This document shows positions 142-57,777 of a stretch of DNA of 64,000 bases, piece after piece. Source of the DNA: Anseongella ginsenosidimutans (GTDB lineage: Bacteria; Bacteroidota; Bacteroidia; Sphingobacteriales; Sphingobacteriaceae); assembly GCF_008033235.1 (NCBI RefSeq), contig NZ_CP042432.1:1922001-1986000 (forward strand), in the 5' to 3' direction. The position numbers and the translations under genes were made by a program. Position 1 is the stretch's first letter. Every line of letters begins with the position of its first letter. The notes under the pieces are model-generated. The model had not been told where the DNA came from. It did not search any database and saw only the letters and a program-made list of their open reading frames with translations.

Positions 142-2980
142 ATGAGCGAGTTAATTCCGGACCTGGGCGAACAGGCCAATGTTGAGGTGTATGGCGCCAG
201 GGTACATAATCTGAAAAATATAGATGTTTCTTTTCCGCGCAATAAGCTGGTGGTGATTACCGGCCTGAGCGGGAGCGGCAAATCTTCCCTGGCATTTGAT
301 ACAATTTATGCCGAAGGACAGCGTCGGTATATCGAGACATTCGGGGCTTATTCCAGGCAATTCCTGGGAAGTCTTGAACGGCCGGACGTGGATAAGATAT
401 CCGGCCTGAGCCCCGTAATTTCCATCGAACAGAAGACCACCTCACGCAATCCCCGGTCCACGGTAGGAACGGTTACGGAGATTTATGATTTCATGCGTTT
501 GCTTTTTGCCCGGATCGCCGATGCTTATTCCTACAATACGGGTGAGTTGATGGTGAAAATGTCGGAAGACGAAATCATCGGCGTGATCATGAAACGGTTT
601 GAAGGGCAGGCCGTGAATATTCTTGCACCCGTGGTTAAAGGCCGGAAGGGGCATTACCGGGAATTATTCGAGCAAATAAGAAAGCAGGGATATCTTAAAG
701 TCCGCCTGGACGGAGAGATAAAGGATGTTGTTCCCAAAATGCAGGCAGATCGCTATAAGATTCACGACATTGAGATCGTGGTGGATCGCCTGGAGATCAA
801 TTCCGCCAACCGCAGGCGCCTGGCTGATTCGGTTCGTTCGGCCATGAAGCAGGCAAAAGGTATTATTAAAGTAAGCGACCCTTCGGGCCAGGAGTTCCAC
901 TACAGCAAATTCCTGATGTGCCCCACAACCGGGATTTCCTACGACGAACCTCAGCCGAATACCTTTTCCTTCAATTCCCCTTACGGGGCCTGCCCGCAGT
1001 GCGGCGGACTCGGTTACGTAATGGAAATAGACGAAAAGTCGGTCATTCCTGATCCTTCGCTCAGCATCATGCAGGGCGGCCTTGCCCCCTGGGTGAATTC
1101 CGCCAGATCTGGATATTCCAGATATTGCAGGGGCTTGGTAAAAAGTATAATTTTTCCCTGGGCGCTCCCATCGGGAAACTGAACGAGGACATAAGACGGA
1201 TCCTGTTATACGGTACCGACGAAATCATCCCGGTAGAAGTGGCTTATAACAAGGAATATAAGCAAACCTACCAGGTCCATTTCGACGGGGTCATAAAAAT
1301 GATGGAAGAGCAGCAGAACCGGCGCGACGATGAAAAGGGCAGCTTGGATGATTTTCGATCCATTAAAGCCTGTCCTTCCTGCGATGGCGCCCGTCTGAAA
1401 ACGGAATCGCTTCATTTCAGGGTGCTGGATAAGAATATTTACGAGCTGAGCTGCATGGACATCCGCCTGCTGGATAAATGGTTTTCCTCGGTGGGGGAAC
1501 AGTTAAGCGAACGGAAACAGGTAATTGCCCGGGAGATCCTGAAGGAGATCAGGTCAAGGATTGGTTTCCTGCTGGATGTCGGGTTAAATTACCTTACCCT
1601 TGACCGCCCGGCCAGGACCTTGTCAGGAGGAGAAGCCCAGCGTATTCGCCTCGCCACGCAAATCGGCTCTCAGCTGATGAACGTGCTTTACATCCTGGAC
1701 GAGCCCAGTATCGGCCTGCACCAGCGCGATAATGAACGCCTTATTACCGCCCTTAAAAACCTTCGGGATATAGGAAATACGGTATTGGTGGTGGAACACG
1801 ACAAGGATATGATCCTGGCCGCTGACCATGTGATAGACATGGGCCCTGCGGCCGGCCTGCATGGCGGGGAAGTGGTGTCGGAAGGAAATTACCGCGCCTT
1901 GCTGAAGGCTACTACTGTCACTACCGATTATCTGAGCGGCAGGAAAGAAATTGCCGTTCCTGCTAAACGCCGGGAAGGAAACGGGAAATCCTTGGTACTT
2001 GAGGGGCGGCAGGACATAATCTGAAAGACGTTTCCGTAGAATTCCCCCTGGGAAAATTCATCTGCGTTACGGGGGTTTCCGGGAGCGGAAAATCATCACT
2101 GATCACGGAAACTCTTTATCCGATTCTGAACCGGCATTTTTTTAATGCAAAGAAGAAGCCCCTGGCTTACGCCGAAATCCGCGGCCTGGAACATATCGAT
2201 AAGGTGATCGAAATTGACCAGTCGCCCATTGGCCGTACCCCGCGCTCCAACCCCGCAACGTATACCGGGGTCTTTTCGGACATACGCTCCCTGTTCGCCC
2301 AGCTACCGGAATCCAAGATCAGGGGTTATAAGCCGGGAAGGTTTTCTTTTAACGTGAAAGGCGGGCGCTGCGAAACCTGCCAGGGCGCGGGCATGAAAGT
2401 CATCGAAATGAACTTTCTCCCGGACGTGTTAGTTCCCTGTGAAGAGTGCAACGGCCGCCGGTATAACCGTGAAACGCTGGAAGTTCGTTTCCGGGGAAAA
2501 TCCATCAACGACGTGCTGGATATGAGCGTGGAAGAGGCAGTCCCCTTTTTTGAAAACCTGACCGCCATCCATCGCAAGATAAAAACCCTGCTGGACGTGG
2601 GCCTGGGATATATTACCCTGGGCCAGGCCTCTACGACCTTGTCGGGGGGAGAGGCGCAGCGGGTAAAACTGGCGACGGAACTTTCCAAGAAGGATACAGG
2701 GAAAACTTTCTACATTCTTGACGAACCAACCACCGGCCTGCATTTCGAGGATATAAACGTCCTGTTGGGGGTACTTGAGAAGCTGGTTGACCGGGGCAAT
2801 ACCGTACTCGTCATAGAACACAACCTGGACGTGATCAAAGTTGCTGACCATGTGGTTGACCTGGGCCCCGAAGGTGGCGCCGGGGGAGGCACAATCATCT
2901 TTTCAGGTACCCCGGACAACCTTGCCACTAACAAAAACAGTTACACGGGACAGTTTTTAAAAAAGGAACTTCTTTTTTAG
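142..2980 (+). pseudogene. uvrA: uvrA, excinuclease ABC subunit A, broken by two frameshifts
   Basis: UvrA is the damage-sensing ATPase of nucleotide excision repair. Three consecutive frames together encode a full-length homologue. Segment 1 (from ATG 142; a TTG lies at 133) has the Walker A loop GLSGSGKSS and the first zinc-binding region, in which the first cysteine pair reads CPTT. Segment 2 has the ABC signature LSGGEAQR and DEPSIGLH. Segment 3 has the Cys4 zinc module (CETC...CEEC), a second LSGGEAQR and DEPTTGLH. The frame drops by one base near the G run 1091-1093 (APW should continue GEF) and again near 2003-2006 (LEG should continue A-x-x-HNLKDV). In both places one added G restores the protein. 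The second Walker A (VSGSGKSS) lies downstream of the second break. Either the gene is dead, or both losses are sequencing errors. Every other gene in the window is intact. Confidence 0.9.
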
Positions 2981-3602
2981 TTTAAAGTTCAAGGTTTAAA
3001 GTTCAAGGTTTAAAGTTTAAAGTTCAAGGTTCAAGGTTTAAAGTTTAAAGTTCAAGATTTAAAGTTTAAAGTTCAAGATTTAAAGTTTAAAGTTTTTAGT
3101 TTAAAGTTTTTAGTTTTTGGTTTTGACTTTGGTTTTTAGTCTTGGGTCGGTAGTTTTTAGTTTCTAGTTTTTGGCTGGCTGCGGCGGTACAGATTGGGGT
3201 TCGGTGGCCGGTCTCGCTCAGGGTGCTTTAGTATCTTGGGTGTTATGCGTTGGCCAAAATCAAAAACCGCTCGCTGCGCCAAAAATAATCCCTTAGCCGG
3301 CCCGCCTTTCGCCCTGCACCTGGAACACAAAACCGAACCATGAACTGTTGCAGCAAATCTAAAACCAGAACCAAAAACCGTTGCAAAACACCTTTAAACT
3401 CGTAACTTCAAACCAGAACCGGCAAACCCGAAACTTCGCGAACTTCAAACCTCGAACTTTAAACTAGAAACTTTAAACTATAAACCGTTGCGAAGCAACT
3501 TTGAACTTCGAACCTTGAACCAGAAACCTTAAACTGTAAACCGTTGCGAAGAACGATAAACTTCAAACTAGAAACTAGAAACTATAAACCGTTGCGAAGC
3601 AA
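2981..3602. repeat. Heptanucleotide repeat island 1, a giant imperfect inverted repeat
   Basis: This gap between convergent genes has no credible ORF. The left arm (2981 to about 3170) is a run of 7-bp units beginning GTT: GTTTAAA, GTTCAAG, GTTTTTA, GTTTTTG. The right arm (about 3340-3602) consists of 7-bp units ending AAC: TTTAAAC, CTTGAAC, TAGAAAC, TATAAAC. The arms are therefore reverse complements of one vocabulary. A double unit, CGTTGCGAAGCAAC, occurs near 3486 and 3590 with a degenerate copy near 3542; it contains the mini-hairpin GTTGC-GAA-GCAAC. The middle (about 3175-3330) is GC-richer and contains CCGGTCTCGCTCAGG at 3208-3222. The right arm runs into the stop codon of the next gene. 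Confidence 0.85.
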
Positions 3603-4085
3603 CTATTGCCCATTCGTTGAGCTGTCAATGACTTCCCATTGAACGTCGCCTTCGTTCACGGTATATTTGAGGAGCATGTTTCCGGCTATGTGGCCGTCTT
3701 CGAAGTAGGCAAGCGCCCAGTTCCGGCCCAGCAGCGTAGCATGCCAGATCCGCATATTGCCGCCCAGGACGCCCTGTTCCGGGATGAGGTCATGCTGCTG
3801 GTAAAGGCTGTTCAGCAAGTCCCTTTCAGGGTTGTTTAGTCCCCTTTGTTTAAAATAGCGGATATCGGAGTCGTTAAAGAGGCTATCGGAGAGGTTATTC
3901 AGATAAGTGTGTTTTCCTTCCATTTCGGCCATGGAGTCGGAGCGGAGTTTTAGCTCGAAGTCCAGCCCTTGTTTGCTGGCGCGCAGGGCATTCCGCTCTT
4001 TTCTTATCTGCCTGTACTGAAAAAAAAGGATGACCAGCAAAAATATGAGGATGATCTCAACTAGAATATGGTAAGAATGCTTCAT
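3603..4085 (-). CDS. Hypothetical membrane-anchored coiled-coil protein
   Basis: This 160-residue protein is not recognised. Residues about 8-24 are strongly hydrophobic (ILVEIILIFLLVILFF) and are followed by a basic stretch, QYRQIRKERNALR, so an N-terminal membrane anchor is likely. Residues about 28-65 are charged and probably coiled-coil. The C-terminal half is a compact soluble region rich in aromatic residues (MRIWHATLLGRNWALAYFEDGHIAGNM, in part). The gene is transcribed towards uvrA, and its stop codon lies in the last unit of the repeat island. It lies 36 bp downstream of pnuC on the same strand, so the two may be co-transcribed. No catalytic motif is visible. Confidence 0.7.
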   Translation of the reverse strand: MKHSYHILVEIILIFLLVILFFQYRQIRKERNALRASKQGLDFELKLRSDSMAEMEGKHTYLNNLSDSLFNDSDIRYFKQRGLNNPERDLLNSLYQQHDLIPEQGVLGGNMRIWHATLLGRNWALAYFEDGHIAGNMLLKYTVNEGDVQWEVIDSSTNGQ

Positions 4086-29212: not shown

Positions 29213-29218
29213 CAGATA

Positions 29219-29275
29219 GTTTAAGGTTTAAAGTTCAAGGTTTAAAATGCGAAGCTTTGAACTTTAAACTGTAAA
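29219..29275 (+). repeat. Mini heptamer island (island 3) between two tRNA genes
   Basis: GTTTAAAGTTCAA at 29226-29238 is the exact reverse complement of TTGAACTTTAAAC at 29257-29269. Between them lies TGCGAAGC (29248-29255), also found in islands 1 and 2. It would form a 13-bp hairpin in the tRNA precursor. Confidence 0.85.
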
Positions 29276-49206: not shown

Positions 49207-49599
49207 ATGAGTGAAAAGGAGAAGTCCCGGATAGACAAATGGTTATGGGCTGTGCGTCTTTTTAAGACCAGGAGCCTCGCCAGCGAGGCATGTAAATCAG
49301 GTAAGGTAAAAATTAGCGGCAAAAGCGTAAAGCCTTCCCACGTCGTAAAGGTATCTGAAGAAATAAGTATTCAAAAAGGCGGATCAAAAAAAGTTGTCCG
49401 GGTAAAAGACCTCCTGGAAAGACGGGTAGATGCTGCAACCGCTGCCTTGTTTTTTGAAGACATCACGCCTCCGGAAGAAAATCCGGCTTTCCCTTCGGCC
49501 TTTCATACGCCCGTATTCAAACGTAACCGGGGCGCCGGCCGCCCCACCAAAAAAGAACGCCGGGAAATGGATCAGGTTCGTTCAAACGACAACTTTTAG
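49207..49599 (+). CDS. S4-domain RNA-binding protein, Hsp15/HslR-like
   Basis: Hsp15 rescues stalled 50S subunits with a peptidyl-tRNA. The protein is 130 residues. It has an S4 domain from the start (RIDKWLWAVRLFKTRSLASE, in part; GKVKISGKSVKPSHVVK) and a basic C-terminus (KRNRGAGRPTKKERREMDQ). The frame is open upstream to TTG 49192, but that lies inside the -7 element, so ATG 49207 is the start. It diverges from dapD and is followed by repeat island 2. Confidence 0.88.
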   Translation: MSEKEKSRIDKWLWAVRLFKTRSLASEACKSGKVKISGKSVKPSHVVKVSEEISIQKGGSKKVVRVKDLLERRVDAATAALFFEDITPPEENPAFPSAFHTPVFKRNRGAGRPTKKERREMDQVRSNDNF

Positions 49600-50174
49600 T
49601 TTTTAGTTTTTAATTTTTAGTTTCTGGTTTAAAGTTCGAAGTTCAAAGTTCAAGGTTCAAGGTTCAAAGTTCAAGTTTTTGGTTTAAAGTTTCTGGTTTA
49701 AAGTTCAAGGTTTAAGGTTCAAAAGTTCCAAGTTCAAGGTTTAAAGTTCAAAGTTCCAATTTCAAGGTTTAAAGTTCCAAATTTGAGGTTCAATGTTTCT
49801 TGTTTGATGTTTTGGGTTTAGGCTTGACCCTTATGTGTTTTAGTTGTGCGCGCTGAGATTTACAGTTGAGCTACAGGCTGTGCGAAGTCAGTAGAAATAC
49901 GTCTAAAAACTAAAAACGATAAACTAAAAAATATGACTCCCGTTTGTTGCGGACATTAGTCACAAGGCATGCGCCTAAAAACTAAAAACTAAAAACGATA
50001 AACTAAAAACTATGACTCCCGTTTGTTGCGGACATTAGTCACAAGGCATGCGCCTAAAAACTTTGAACCAAAAACAGTAACTGCGTAATTAGGACATACG
50101 CCTAAAAACTAAAAACTAAAAACTTTAAACTTGGAACGTTAAACCTTGAACTTGGAACGTTGAACTAAAAAAGT
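49600..50174. repeat. Heptanucleotide repeat island 2
   Basis: Like island 1, this fills the gap between two convergent genes. The left arm (about 49600-49830) is a run of units beginning GTT (GTTTTTA, GTTCAAA, GTTCAAG, GTTTAAA, GTTCCAA). The right part (about 49900-50174) has units ending AAC (TAAAAAC, TTTAAAC, CTTGAAC, TTGGAAC). The centre includes TGTGCGAAG (TGCGAAG at 49881-49887), shared with islands 1 and 3. A 79-bp-period direct repeat lies inside. No ORF is credible. Confidence 0.85.
49911..50062. repeat. Tandem duplication with 79-bp period inside island 2
   Basis: Copy 1 starts at 49911 and copy 2 at 49990. They are the same through 50062 except for one base (A in copy 1, C in copy 2, just before ATGACTCCC). 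Each copy contains the non-heptameric insert GTTTGTTGCGGACATTAGTC followed by ACAAGGCATGCGCC. Confidence 0.88.
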
Positions 50175-55326: not shown

Positions 55327-57777
55327 TTAAAAAGGATAGCCGATGGCAATATTAAAGACCAGGTTCTCCTTTCGCCAGTTTTTATCGCTGAAATCCACCT
55401 GGTCAATTACCCATCGCTCACCCTCGGGCAGCCAGGGCTTCCGCAGCGGAAAGGCCACATCCAGCCGTACCACGAAAAAGGAAAGATCTACGCGTAATCC
55501 CAGCCCGGTTCCCACGGCGATCTCTTGATAAAAGTTGCTGCTGAAAGCCGCCCCGGGCTTCAGAGGGTCTTCCCGCATTAACCAGATATTACCTGCGTCG
55601 GCGAAGATCGCTCCTTTCAAAGCGCTGACCAGGTCAAAGCGCAGTTCGGTATTCGCCTCCAGTTTGAGATCGCCTGCCTGGTCAGGGAAAAAGCTGCCGG
55701 GCGTTTCCTCCCCGCTGTTTTCAGCGCTTGTTTCCGCATCATAGCTGCCCGGACCAAGCGAGCGCGCACGGAAAGCCCGCAGACTGTTGCTGCCGCCTAT
55801 AAAAAACTGTTTTACGAATGGAAGGCTACTGGAATTTCCATAAGGCTGGCCTGCCCCAAGTATCAGCCGGTTGGCCCAGGTAAGGCCGTCATTGATCTTA
55901 TAATAACTGCGGGCGTCAGCTTCCGCCTTTATATATTGTGAGAAAGGGGTCCTGAAAATGGTTGCCTGGTCGGTGGGAGAGTTCTTTCCGGTAAACAGCC
56001 CGGCGATGTTTCCTGAAAGATCAAGCATTCCCTGGAAATAAAAATTATGACGGCGTTCTGTTTCCAGCTGATCGGTATATGTAAAGGAATAATTGGCGCC
56101 GAGGATAAACTGCCGGTCGAAACTATTCCGGAGCGTCGGGTCGGCTCTTTTCAGGGAATCAAAGAGCGGCGTGGTATTGAATGGCTGGACAAACGTAATG
56201 GAGACCGGGTTCAGGGTGTGTTCTTTCCGGGAGCTTTCTTTCCAGATATAACCAAAGGAAAAACGGTAGGAATTGATGGAATAATAATTGGCACGGTTGC
56301 GGAGTTCATAAGCGCCCGTAAAGCGGGTACGCGGAACATAAGCGCCGGTACTGCTGACATAAAAAGGGGTGATGAACCTGGGGTACTGCAGGTCAACTTC
56401 TGCTCCCAGGAAATAGGAGCCACCCCCGGTCCGGGACTGCTGTCCGCTTGTCTGAGTTTCAAATCCGCCGGTGAGATTGAGTTGCAGCTGCTCAGCGCCT
56501 CTGAATGCGTTCCGGTGCAGCCAGCCTACCGATACCTCGGATCCCACGAAGTTGTTGGATTTGGAGGTGCCCGAAAGCTTGGCGTTCAGTGATTTTTTCG
56601 GCATCGGAGTCAGGTAATAGGACACGTCCAGCCGGTGCCTGCTTTCCGGCTGCACTTCGGTAAACTGGTTCTTTACAAATTTAAAGGTACCCAGGTGAAC
56701 GAGCCGGTTCAGCGAAAGATTATGGTCTTCCAGGTTATATATGTCCCCGGTTTGAAAAAACATGGTTCGCCGGAATACATGGGTCTTGAACTTCTCTTTC
56801 GGATCGAAAATATGGAACCCGTGGTAAAAAACCGTATCGCCCTGAAGCCGCGTAGTGTCTTCCTGAAGGCTGTAATCAGGATAAATATAAATATTGTTGA
56901 TCCGGTAGACCTCCCTGGCCTTCCGGGGGGCGTTCTCTTTGACGCGGACATAAAGTTCCACATCGCTGCCGCCTTGCGTACTATCGGCTTTTACGATCAG
57001 GTAGTCCGGGTTGAAATAGTAGAATCCATGTTCTTTCAGGTATTTGTCAATTCGTTCCCGTTCTGCCTTGATGGTGGTAAGGTCGTAGGGTTCGCCCAAC
57101 TTTAACAAAGTTTCAGCCGTGTCTGCGCGGATCGCTTTGGCAAGCGCGCTGCTGTCGGCCGGAAAGCCTACTTTGCTGATCATATACCTGCTGCCGGGCG
57201 CCAGCGTATAGGTAAGGCTCGCTTTTTTTTCGGCCACGCTGCTGTCTACCTGGCTTTCCGCTTTAAAGTAACCCTGGTTTTGCAGGGAATTCACCAGAAT
57301 GTTCCTGTTCTTTTCAATATCTACAGAGCTGTACAGCACCGGCGGTTCTCCCATTTTTTTCTTTATAAAGGCAGCCGGGCTTTTTTCCTTTTTAGGATTC
57401 CCGGCAAGATTGTAAAAGAATAATTTAAGCCGCATGCCCAGGAATTTGCTGTTGGGCAGCGGTCGTGTAAGGTCCGATAATTCGTCTTCCAGCCTTTTCT
57501 TTTCTTTCCGCGGCAGCTGTTCCCCTTCCACCTGTACTTCCGCTCCCGTATACAGTTTTTCTCCTTCCGGTAAATGCTTTAGATTGCTGCAGGATGCAAA
57601 ACATAAAATACATAGCAAAAAGGCGACGGTTTGTAGTTTTTGGTTTGTAGTTTTTAGTTGGTCGTTGCCGGTTTTCGGGGTGCGGCGAGTGGGATAGTTT
57701 TTGGAAACTGTGAGCCAAAAACTATGTATTAATGACCGCTGACGGTTATTTTTGGAAGAGTTCTTTAAATTCATCAT
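55327..57777 (-). CDS. tamL: TamL, lipoprotein form of the Omp85 protein TamA
   Basis: Bacteroidota have a lipid-anchored TamA homologue (TamL) that works with TamB at the outer membrane. The 816-residue protein has a lipobox near Cys63 (LLCILCFASC), POTRA domains at about 70-390, and an Omp85 barrel ending VFNIAIGYPF. The region before the lipobox is far too long for a normal signal. It contains heptamer-repeat-derived codons (about residues 18-50), and no ATG, GTG or TTG start lies between residue 2 and residue 54. The start codon overlaps the tamB stop by about 32 nt. Confidence 0.85.
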   Translation of the reverse strand: MMNLKNSSKNNRQRSLIHSFWLTVSKNYPTRRTPKTGNDQLKTTNQKLQTVAFLLCILCFASCSNLKHLPEGEKLYTGAEVQVEGEQLPRKEKKRLEDELSDLTRPLPNSKFLGMRLKLFFYNLAGNPKKEKSPAAFIKKKMGEPPVLYSSVDIEKNRNILVNSLQNQGYFKAESQVDSSVAEKKASLTYTLAPGSRYMISKVGFPADSSALAKAIRADTAETLLKLGEPYDLTTIKAERERIDKYLKEHGFYYFNPDYLIVKADSTQGGSDVELYVRVKENAPRKAREVYRINNIYIYPDYSLQEDTTRLQGDTVFYHGFHIFDPKEKFKTHVFRRTMFFQTGDIYNLEDHNLSLNRLVHLGTFKFVKNQFTEVQPESRHRLDVSYYLTPMPKKSLNAKLSGTSKSNNFVGSEVSVGWLHRNAFRGAEQLQLNLTGGFETQTSGQQSRTGGGSYFLGAEVDLQYPRFITPFYVSSTGAYVPRTRFTGAYELRNRANYYSINSYRFSFGYIWKESSRKEHTLNPVSITFVQPFNTTPLFDSLKRADPTLRNSFDRQFILGANYSFTYTDQLETERRHNFYFQGMLDLSGNIAGLFTGKNSPTDQATIFRTPFSQYIKAEADARSYYKINDGLTWANRLILGAGQPYGNSSSLPFVKQFFIGGSNSLRAFRARSLGPGSYDAETSAENSGEETPGSFFPDQAGDLKLEANTELRFDLVSALKGAIFADAGNIWLMREDPLKPGAAFSSNFYQEIAVGTGLGLRVDLSFFVVRLDVAFPLRKPWLPEGERWVIDQVDFSDKNWRKENLVFNIAIGYPF
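57618..57725. repeat. Heptamer-type repeats inside the 5' end of tamL (island 4)
   Basis: On the plus strand the segment reads in GTT units (GTTTGTA, GTTTTTG, GTTTGTA, GTTTTTA). It also contains a perfect hairpin: ATAGTTTTTGG (57694-57704) with CCAAAAACTAT (57715-57725). Because tamL is coded on the minus strand, these bases are codons of its unusually long N-terminus. Confidence 0.8.

Follow-up and report, generated by a model that had tools for sequence, protein, structure and literature searches.

The window (the whole stretch of 64,000 nucleotides of Anseongella ginsenosidimutans DNA that was analysed) contains near its start a 622-bp gap, at positions 2981-3602, between the stop codons of uvrA and of a convergent gene encoding a 160-aa protein, and each end of this gap is occupied by an array of heptanucleotides anchored on GTT (Table 1). 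A preliminary description of this DNA had read the gap as 7-bp words with a fixed GTT, set in two arms that are inverted relative to each other, and both observations hold: GTT lies on the plus strand in the left arm and on the minus strand in the right, and identity at a lag of 7 is 0.73 in the left arm (2981-3170, 190 bp; 0.33 +/- 0.04 in 500 dinucleotide shuffles) and 0.48 in the right arm (3331-3602, 272 bp; 0.29 +/- 0.03 in 500 dinucleotide shuffles). The 7-bp autocorrelation peak expected of such an arrangement is present, with lag 7 and its multiples 14 and 21 dominating the repeats found in gene gaps (42 regions at lag 7, as against 0 to 4 at other lags), and superunits of 14, 21, 28 and 79 bp were detected in the arrays.

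Two parts of the earlier reading require amendment. Its strict 7-nt register is found in the left arm, where 18 of 22 GTT share one phase and Tandem Repeats Finder returns periods of 7 and 21, but not in the right arm, where the 33 GTT of the minus strand are split over three main phases (16/7/7) and the register has therefore been broken by indels. Similarly, both arms are made of GTT-N4 words, but the middle 160 bp (3171-3330) show no clear heptad array (lag-7 identity 0.35, against a shuffle mean of 0.25 +/- 0.04 and a shuffle maximum of 0.37), and "built entirely" is accordingly wrong for about one-quarter of the gap. The arms are joined by inverted repeats, mostly of 44-47 nt with 70-84% complementarity.

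Table 1. Features of the gap and its flanking genes (window positions)
Feature	Position	Strand	Remarks
uvrA, 3' part	2204..2980	+	stop TAG at 2978-2980; its G opens the GTT array
Left arm, regular part	2980..3109	+	GTT-YNNR heptads, mostly GTTTAAA and GTTCAAG; periods 7 and 21
Left arm, decaying part	3110..3172	+	words GTTTTTA and GTTTTTG; slips
Gap middle	3171..3330	no strand	heptad periodicity unclear; lag-7 identity 0.35, inside shuffle range
Right arm	3331..3602	-	GTT-N4 heptads with register slips
Hairpin GTTGCTTCGCAAC, then GGTTTATAG	3487..3499	-	with the next base, two heptads in length
Hairpin GTTGCTTCGCAAC	3591..3603	-	flush with the right gene's stop TAG; its first G is the stop's G
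Right gene, 160-aa protein	3603..4085	-	convergent partner of uvrA; 72.5% identical in the sister species

In this genome uvrA occupies 133-2980 of the window as three ORFs in different frames, of which the last 258 codons are intact, whereas the sister species and other relatives possess a single open frame of about 950 aa. The split gene is either a pseudogene or a sequencing error, and a second uvrA-like gene elsewhere in the genome (C1:2336925) has an open frame of 962 aa.

Heptad islands across the genome

The expectation that other islands exist in the genome is borne out by 549 matches to the pattern (GTTYNNR)x3-GTT in 4.32 Mb, compared with 13 for the reversed control, and the word is more exactly described as GTT-Y-N-N-R. 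Among 655 phased words from 71 arrays, the commonest base accounts for 93.7, 91.0 and 93.9% at the three GTT positions and for 51-62% at the other four, a conservation that is in part by construction because GTT was itself used to detect the arrays. A pyrimidine occupies position 4 in 88% of words and a purine position 7 in 89%, positions 5 and 6 are mostly A or T, and the common words include GTTTAAA, GTTTTTA, GTTCAAG and GTTCAAA.

The distribution of arrays was determined in a sample of 1.67 Mb (39% of the genome) taken as stretches, with genes predicted by a home-made hexamer-based caller. Arrays were present in 41 of 1,156 gene gaps, comprising 29 of 824 co-directional, 12 of 157 convergent and 0 of 175 divergent gaps (divergent versus the rest, p = 0.0015), and only 41 of 4,740 array bases overlapped coding sequence. 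Extrapolation gives approximately 100 islands (about 106) genome-wide. Elsewhere in the window, a second convergent island (49594-50166) spans 575 bp where the sister species has 2 bp and holds two copies of a 79-bp unit with 98% matches, and short GTT-heptad arrays are found at 57628-57677, in a co-directional gap and antisense to the genes, and at 29218-29246, in the sense direction.

Empty sites in a sister species

A single sister species of the same genus was compared, represented by a 230-contig draft (G001) that is 92% complete; it was searched with the gene ends from 27 islands, both flanks were required to be conserved, and every compared gap lay within a single contig. The array pattern does not occur once in the sister genome. 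At the locus of the 622-bp gap it reads TAG, CG, CTA, leaving 2 bp between the stops, and its flanks are the same genes, with 93% identity over the 258-aa C-terminal fragment of uvrA and 72.5% for the right gene. As far as the sequences of the two species tell, the gap island is thus shown to be an insertion into a 2-bp gap and not the slow growth of an old spacer.

The same difference in length extends to other islands. For 20 array-bearing gaps the median is 295 bp in this genome and 44.5 bp in the sister, with 2 of the 20 long in both species, whereas 33 control gaps without arrays have medians of 24 and 25 bp and all agree within 60 bp (Mann-Whitney, p = 3.6e-8). Because most relatives are without arrays, gain in this genome is more likely than loss in the sister: most genomes of the same family have no or few matches to the array pattern, a few in the same class are rich, and this genome is the richest among the surveyed members of its family. 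The sister counterparts of some array gaps are 4 bp long or consist of overlapping genes, and the arrays at these positions probably fall within operons.

Junctions at stop codons and polarity of the arrays

The insertions are positioned with some precision. Where an array or hairpin starts at most 12 nt from a stop codon and the sister gene ends in TAA or TGA, 9 of 9 genes end here in TAG followed by TT, as compared to a change from TAA or TGA to TAG in 8 of 37 controls (p = 2e-5), and the last sense codons are often kept, as where the sister's ggaaatTAAtccagc corresponds to ggaaatTAGttgcttcgcaac. Across the genome sample, TAG is found at 18 of 27 array-near stops and at 270 of 1,365 stops overall (p = 1e-7). 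Rewriting of stops, in which the AGTT of an island would turn TAA or TGA into TAG-TT, is thus shown in other islands insofar as the sister sequence represents the earlier state; the gap at 2981-3602 illustrates the flush position and not the rewriting, because both genes already end in TAG in the sister. Most simply read, the junctions are those of an insert that starts with AGTT and is attached behind the stop codon's T. Selection may also contribute to the TAG junctions, since insertions that keep a stop would be the survivors.

The arrays also have a preferred orientation. The 5' end of the GTT strand lies a median of 23 nt from the adjacent ORF and the 3' end 193 nt (p = 5e-7), and the frequency of arrays at stop edges is 3.6 times that at start edges (p = 4e-5); when the count is restricted to co-directional gaps, 23 of 35 arms lie towards the stop (p = 0.09). 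The polarity recurs in the Cytophagales MAG bin16 (8.5 versus 139 nt) and in the array-rich genome G037 (9 versus 64 nt; p = 0.02), and runs in the same direction, without significance, in a second rich genome, G041. A universal stop-codon rule was rejected, as arrays in other genomes abut starts as often as stops and some lie in divergent gaps. TAG is not enriched at the loci of bin16 and other named stretches, a sample biased by having been picked by array hit. In bin16 (JAAFIN01; 31% G+C in its loci) arrays adjoin starts more than stops. Periodicity decays with distance from the gene, an observation that is partly circular as a sign of growth polarity.

Hairpins and the possibility of termination

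The preliminary description inferred that the arms would form a long RNA hairpin ending both convergent transcripts. Such a hairpin is indeed predicted, the whole gap folding at -194 kcal/mol as compared to -151 +/- 6.5 in shuffles (z = -6.6), but the view that the arms exist to form it is not supported. Arms of the same convergent island pair with a mean of -42.5 kcal/mol and arms of different islands with -51.2 +/- 22.9 among six convergent islands, and coevolution of the arms for pairing was rejected for long islands, in which swapped arms pair at least as strongly as true pairs. The inverted repeat arises because each of the converging genes carries its own GTT array pointing inward, and many co-directional islands cannot form a long hairpin because they have only a single GTT arm. 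For short hairpins in other genomes there is a weak signal of arm word matching (283 versus 266 +/- 7 in permutations, p = 0.013).

A second, smaller structure is the 13-nt hairpin GTTGCTTCGCAAC, present twice in the right arm, one copy being on the stop codon itself. In the 1.67-Mb sample it occurs 31 times, island gaps accounting for 25 copies and other gaps for 1; it is nearly always followed by A/G-GTT and sits at the gene-proximal end of many arrays. Followed by GGTTTATAG, it forms weak, predicted terminator-like sites at 3591-3603 and 3487-3499 of the minus strand, and the region has 3 such predicted sites compared with 1.2 +/- 1.0 in shuffles. Rfam gave no match above the gathering score, the best being a sub-threshold hit outside the gap.

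It is conceivable that the islands act as bidirectional terminators or insulators, in which the arms would fold as a long RNA hairpin and the small hairpin with its U-rich GTT tract would halt the polymerase. The strength of the predicted fold, the terminator-like minus-strand sites, the concentration of GTTGCTTCGCAAC in island gaps ahead of A/G-GTT, and the fact that convergent gaps bear arrays about twice as often as co-directional gaps are all consistent with this function. Nonetheless it seems an unlikely explanation of the islands: the sister species has the same genes 2 bp apart with no terminator between the stops, an island's own arms match no better than arms taken from other islands, several islands are single-armed, and some arrays probably lie within operons (sister gap of 4 bp or overlap), where a terminator would harm.

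Relation to known repeats and dialects among relatives

Judged by sequence organization, the islands are kin to the heptameric intergenic repeats of Xanthomonas and Nostoc, a known kind. Those repeats, GGGAATC and GGGGA(T/C)T, are heterogeneous and intergenic with few copies between divergent ORFs, the 5' end of the G-rich strand lies on average 28 nt from an ORF as against 160 nt on the other side, some overlap stop codons and some form convergent pairs, and they have no general tie to mobile elements and a function reported as unknown (PMC4692102). The islands share with them a 7-nt tandem unit with a conserved anchor (GTT at 91-94%) and degenerate remainder (51-62%), an intergenic location (41 of 4,740 bases coding, 0 of 175 divergent gaps), a 5' end flush with the ORF (23 versus 193 nt) and convergent pairing. 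They differ in consisting of more mixed GTT words without G-tracts of at least 3, in the embedded GTTGCTTCGCAAC hairpin, in a strong preference for stop edges with the stop rewritten to TAG, and in the availability of a sister species without islands. Because the GTT words are without G-tracts, quadruplex formation cannot be the common cause.

Heptamers of the sequence TAACTGA occur in Beggiatoaceae, Cyanobacteria and a few Bacteroidetes as intergenic direct repeats, sporadic by species; in the Bacteroidetes cases close relatives have shorter, repeat-free gaps, and in Beggiatoaceae the repeats are mostly just upstream of start codons (PMC4679880). Unlike these, the islands combine a GTT anchor with many words and not one fixed word, and the arrays of this genome do not have an exact TAACTGA unit just upstream of starts.

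Cyanobacterial STRR, or heptanucleotide repeats, are intergenic and made of one fixed unit; going by their description, these and long simple sequence repeats resemble the islands in period and intergenic location and differ in sequence family. Period 7 is the favoured long bacterial unit among simple sequence repeats, according to the account of Mrazek et al. (2007) given in PMC4679880. Three further candidates were rejected. The 7-bp words are without unique spacers and so do not constitute a CRISPR array, as the preliminary description had recognized in setting the gap apart also from an ordinary microsatellite. Integron attC sites have a core GTTRRRY with its partner RYYYAAC upstream, which does not fit words whose position 4 is 88% pyrimidine and in which GTT precedes AAC. 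Carriage by phage was dismissed, as 2.9 million viral contigs yielded no exact match to a 24-mer.

The small hairpin also invites comparison with REP/BIME elements, which are likewise palindromic, near stop codons and in many copies. A related mobile element, in which hairpin and heptads would be moved to stop codons by a dedicated transposase or another enzyme, would fit the lineage-specific appearance of the islands at many sites, the constant hairpin with which many arrays begin next to the gene and the exact junctions. Unlike REP/BIME elements, the islands are mostly tandem heptad array. Mobilization is a slightly more doubtful proposition than termination: there is no RAYT gene, a search confined to PF01797 (Y1_Tnp/RAYT) giving 0 matches in this genome, the richest surveyed in its family, although 25 of 34 surveyed genomes have one; and there is no consistent target-site duplication by eye and no exact 24-mer match in the viral contigs. 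On the PF01797 result, IS200/RAYT mobilization was rejected.

An exact 28-mer of this genome's dialect was found in 46 named stretches (L101-L146), all from Bacteroidota and 26 of them from MAG JAAFIN01, and 39 of the 295 genomes in the class contain GTT-to-AAC heptad palindromes. In the rich genomes G037 and G041 there are also heptad arrays built on other anchors, so that the 7-nt period is shared and the words are dialects. Among these anchors (loci L062-L079 of G037 and L081-L100 of G041) are GAGAGCA, GAATAGA, AGTTGGC, CTACTCT, GAAGTCG and GTAATCA, and single gaps in these two genomes often combine a G-type array at the 5' end with a C-type one at the 3' end, the two belonging at times to different word families. 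In the class survey the reversed control pattern itself scored high in some genomes, most of all in family f16, pointing to a mirror-type heptad dialect anchored on TTG/CAA. The phased protein binding suggested in the preliminary description, in which a protein covering 7 nt of DNA or RNA, for instance one with a cold-shock domain, would contact GTT, would accord with a conserved GTT amid four variable positions and with cold-shock proteins reported on heptamer repeats (as reviewed in PMC4679880), but is very improbable given that anchors as different as GAAGTCG, GTAATCA, GAGAGCA and AGTTGGC keep the same 7-nt period in other genomes and gaps and that the sister species manages without arrays.

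A search of open-access literature returned no paper dealing with GTT-YNNR islands or with the rewriting of stop codons, and within the literature searched the GTT dialect, the GTTGCTTCGCAAC hairpin, the rewriting of stops and the lineage-specific invasion appear undescribed.

Proposed origin and persistence of the islands

The comparisons establish insertion relative to the sister species, a start on the stop codon, a GTT strand pointing away from the gene, and arrays on both genes of convergent pairs. They are probably best accounted for by lineage-specific islands recently inserted at gene ends, which grow by duplication and persist in 3' space, with the RNA hairpin as a by-product. Arrays would grow and be reshuffled by duplication of blocks of 7, 14, 21, 28, 79 bp and longer, through slippage or unequal recombination. 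They would persist in 3' untranslated space, where they may do little harm, and be eliminated wherever they fall in coding sequence or, as far as this genome is concerned, in divergent promoter gaps; the hairpin, most likely a by-product, may have a weak terminating or stabilizing effect. The form of the stop-codon junction speaks less for a classical transposase than for DNA copying, or a switch of template, where the sequence resembles TAG.

Two observations sit less easily with insertion followed by duplication and passive persistence. Slippage and neutral decay do not predict the conservation of GTT, and selection or biased copying may therefore act on it. The precision at stop codons, moreover, looks like a targeted mechanism and not passive tolerance, and counts against this explanation. 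An alternative, to which a low probability is attached, is that a novel DNA-copying process seeds arrays precisely at stops (T|AGTT), recreates the stop so that the end of the reading frame is preserved, and then adds heptads beside the gene; related systems would account for the genome-specific dialects across Bacteroidota.

Reports of heptamer repeats from scattered bacteria go back decades and offer no account of their origin. The present pair of species catches an invasion of roughly 100 sites while the empty sites are still readable in the sister, so that seeding, target choice and growth can be tested directly. The rule at stop-codon junctions is sufficiently narrow to guide a search for an enzyme or a replication accident, and because the islands lengthen compact gaps several-fold, their effects on 3' ends and operons are measurable.
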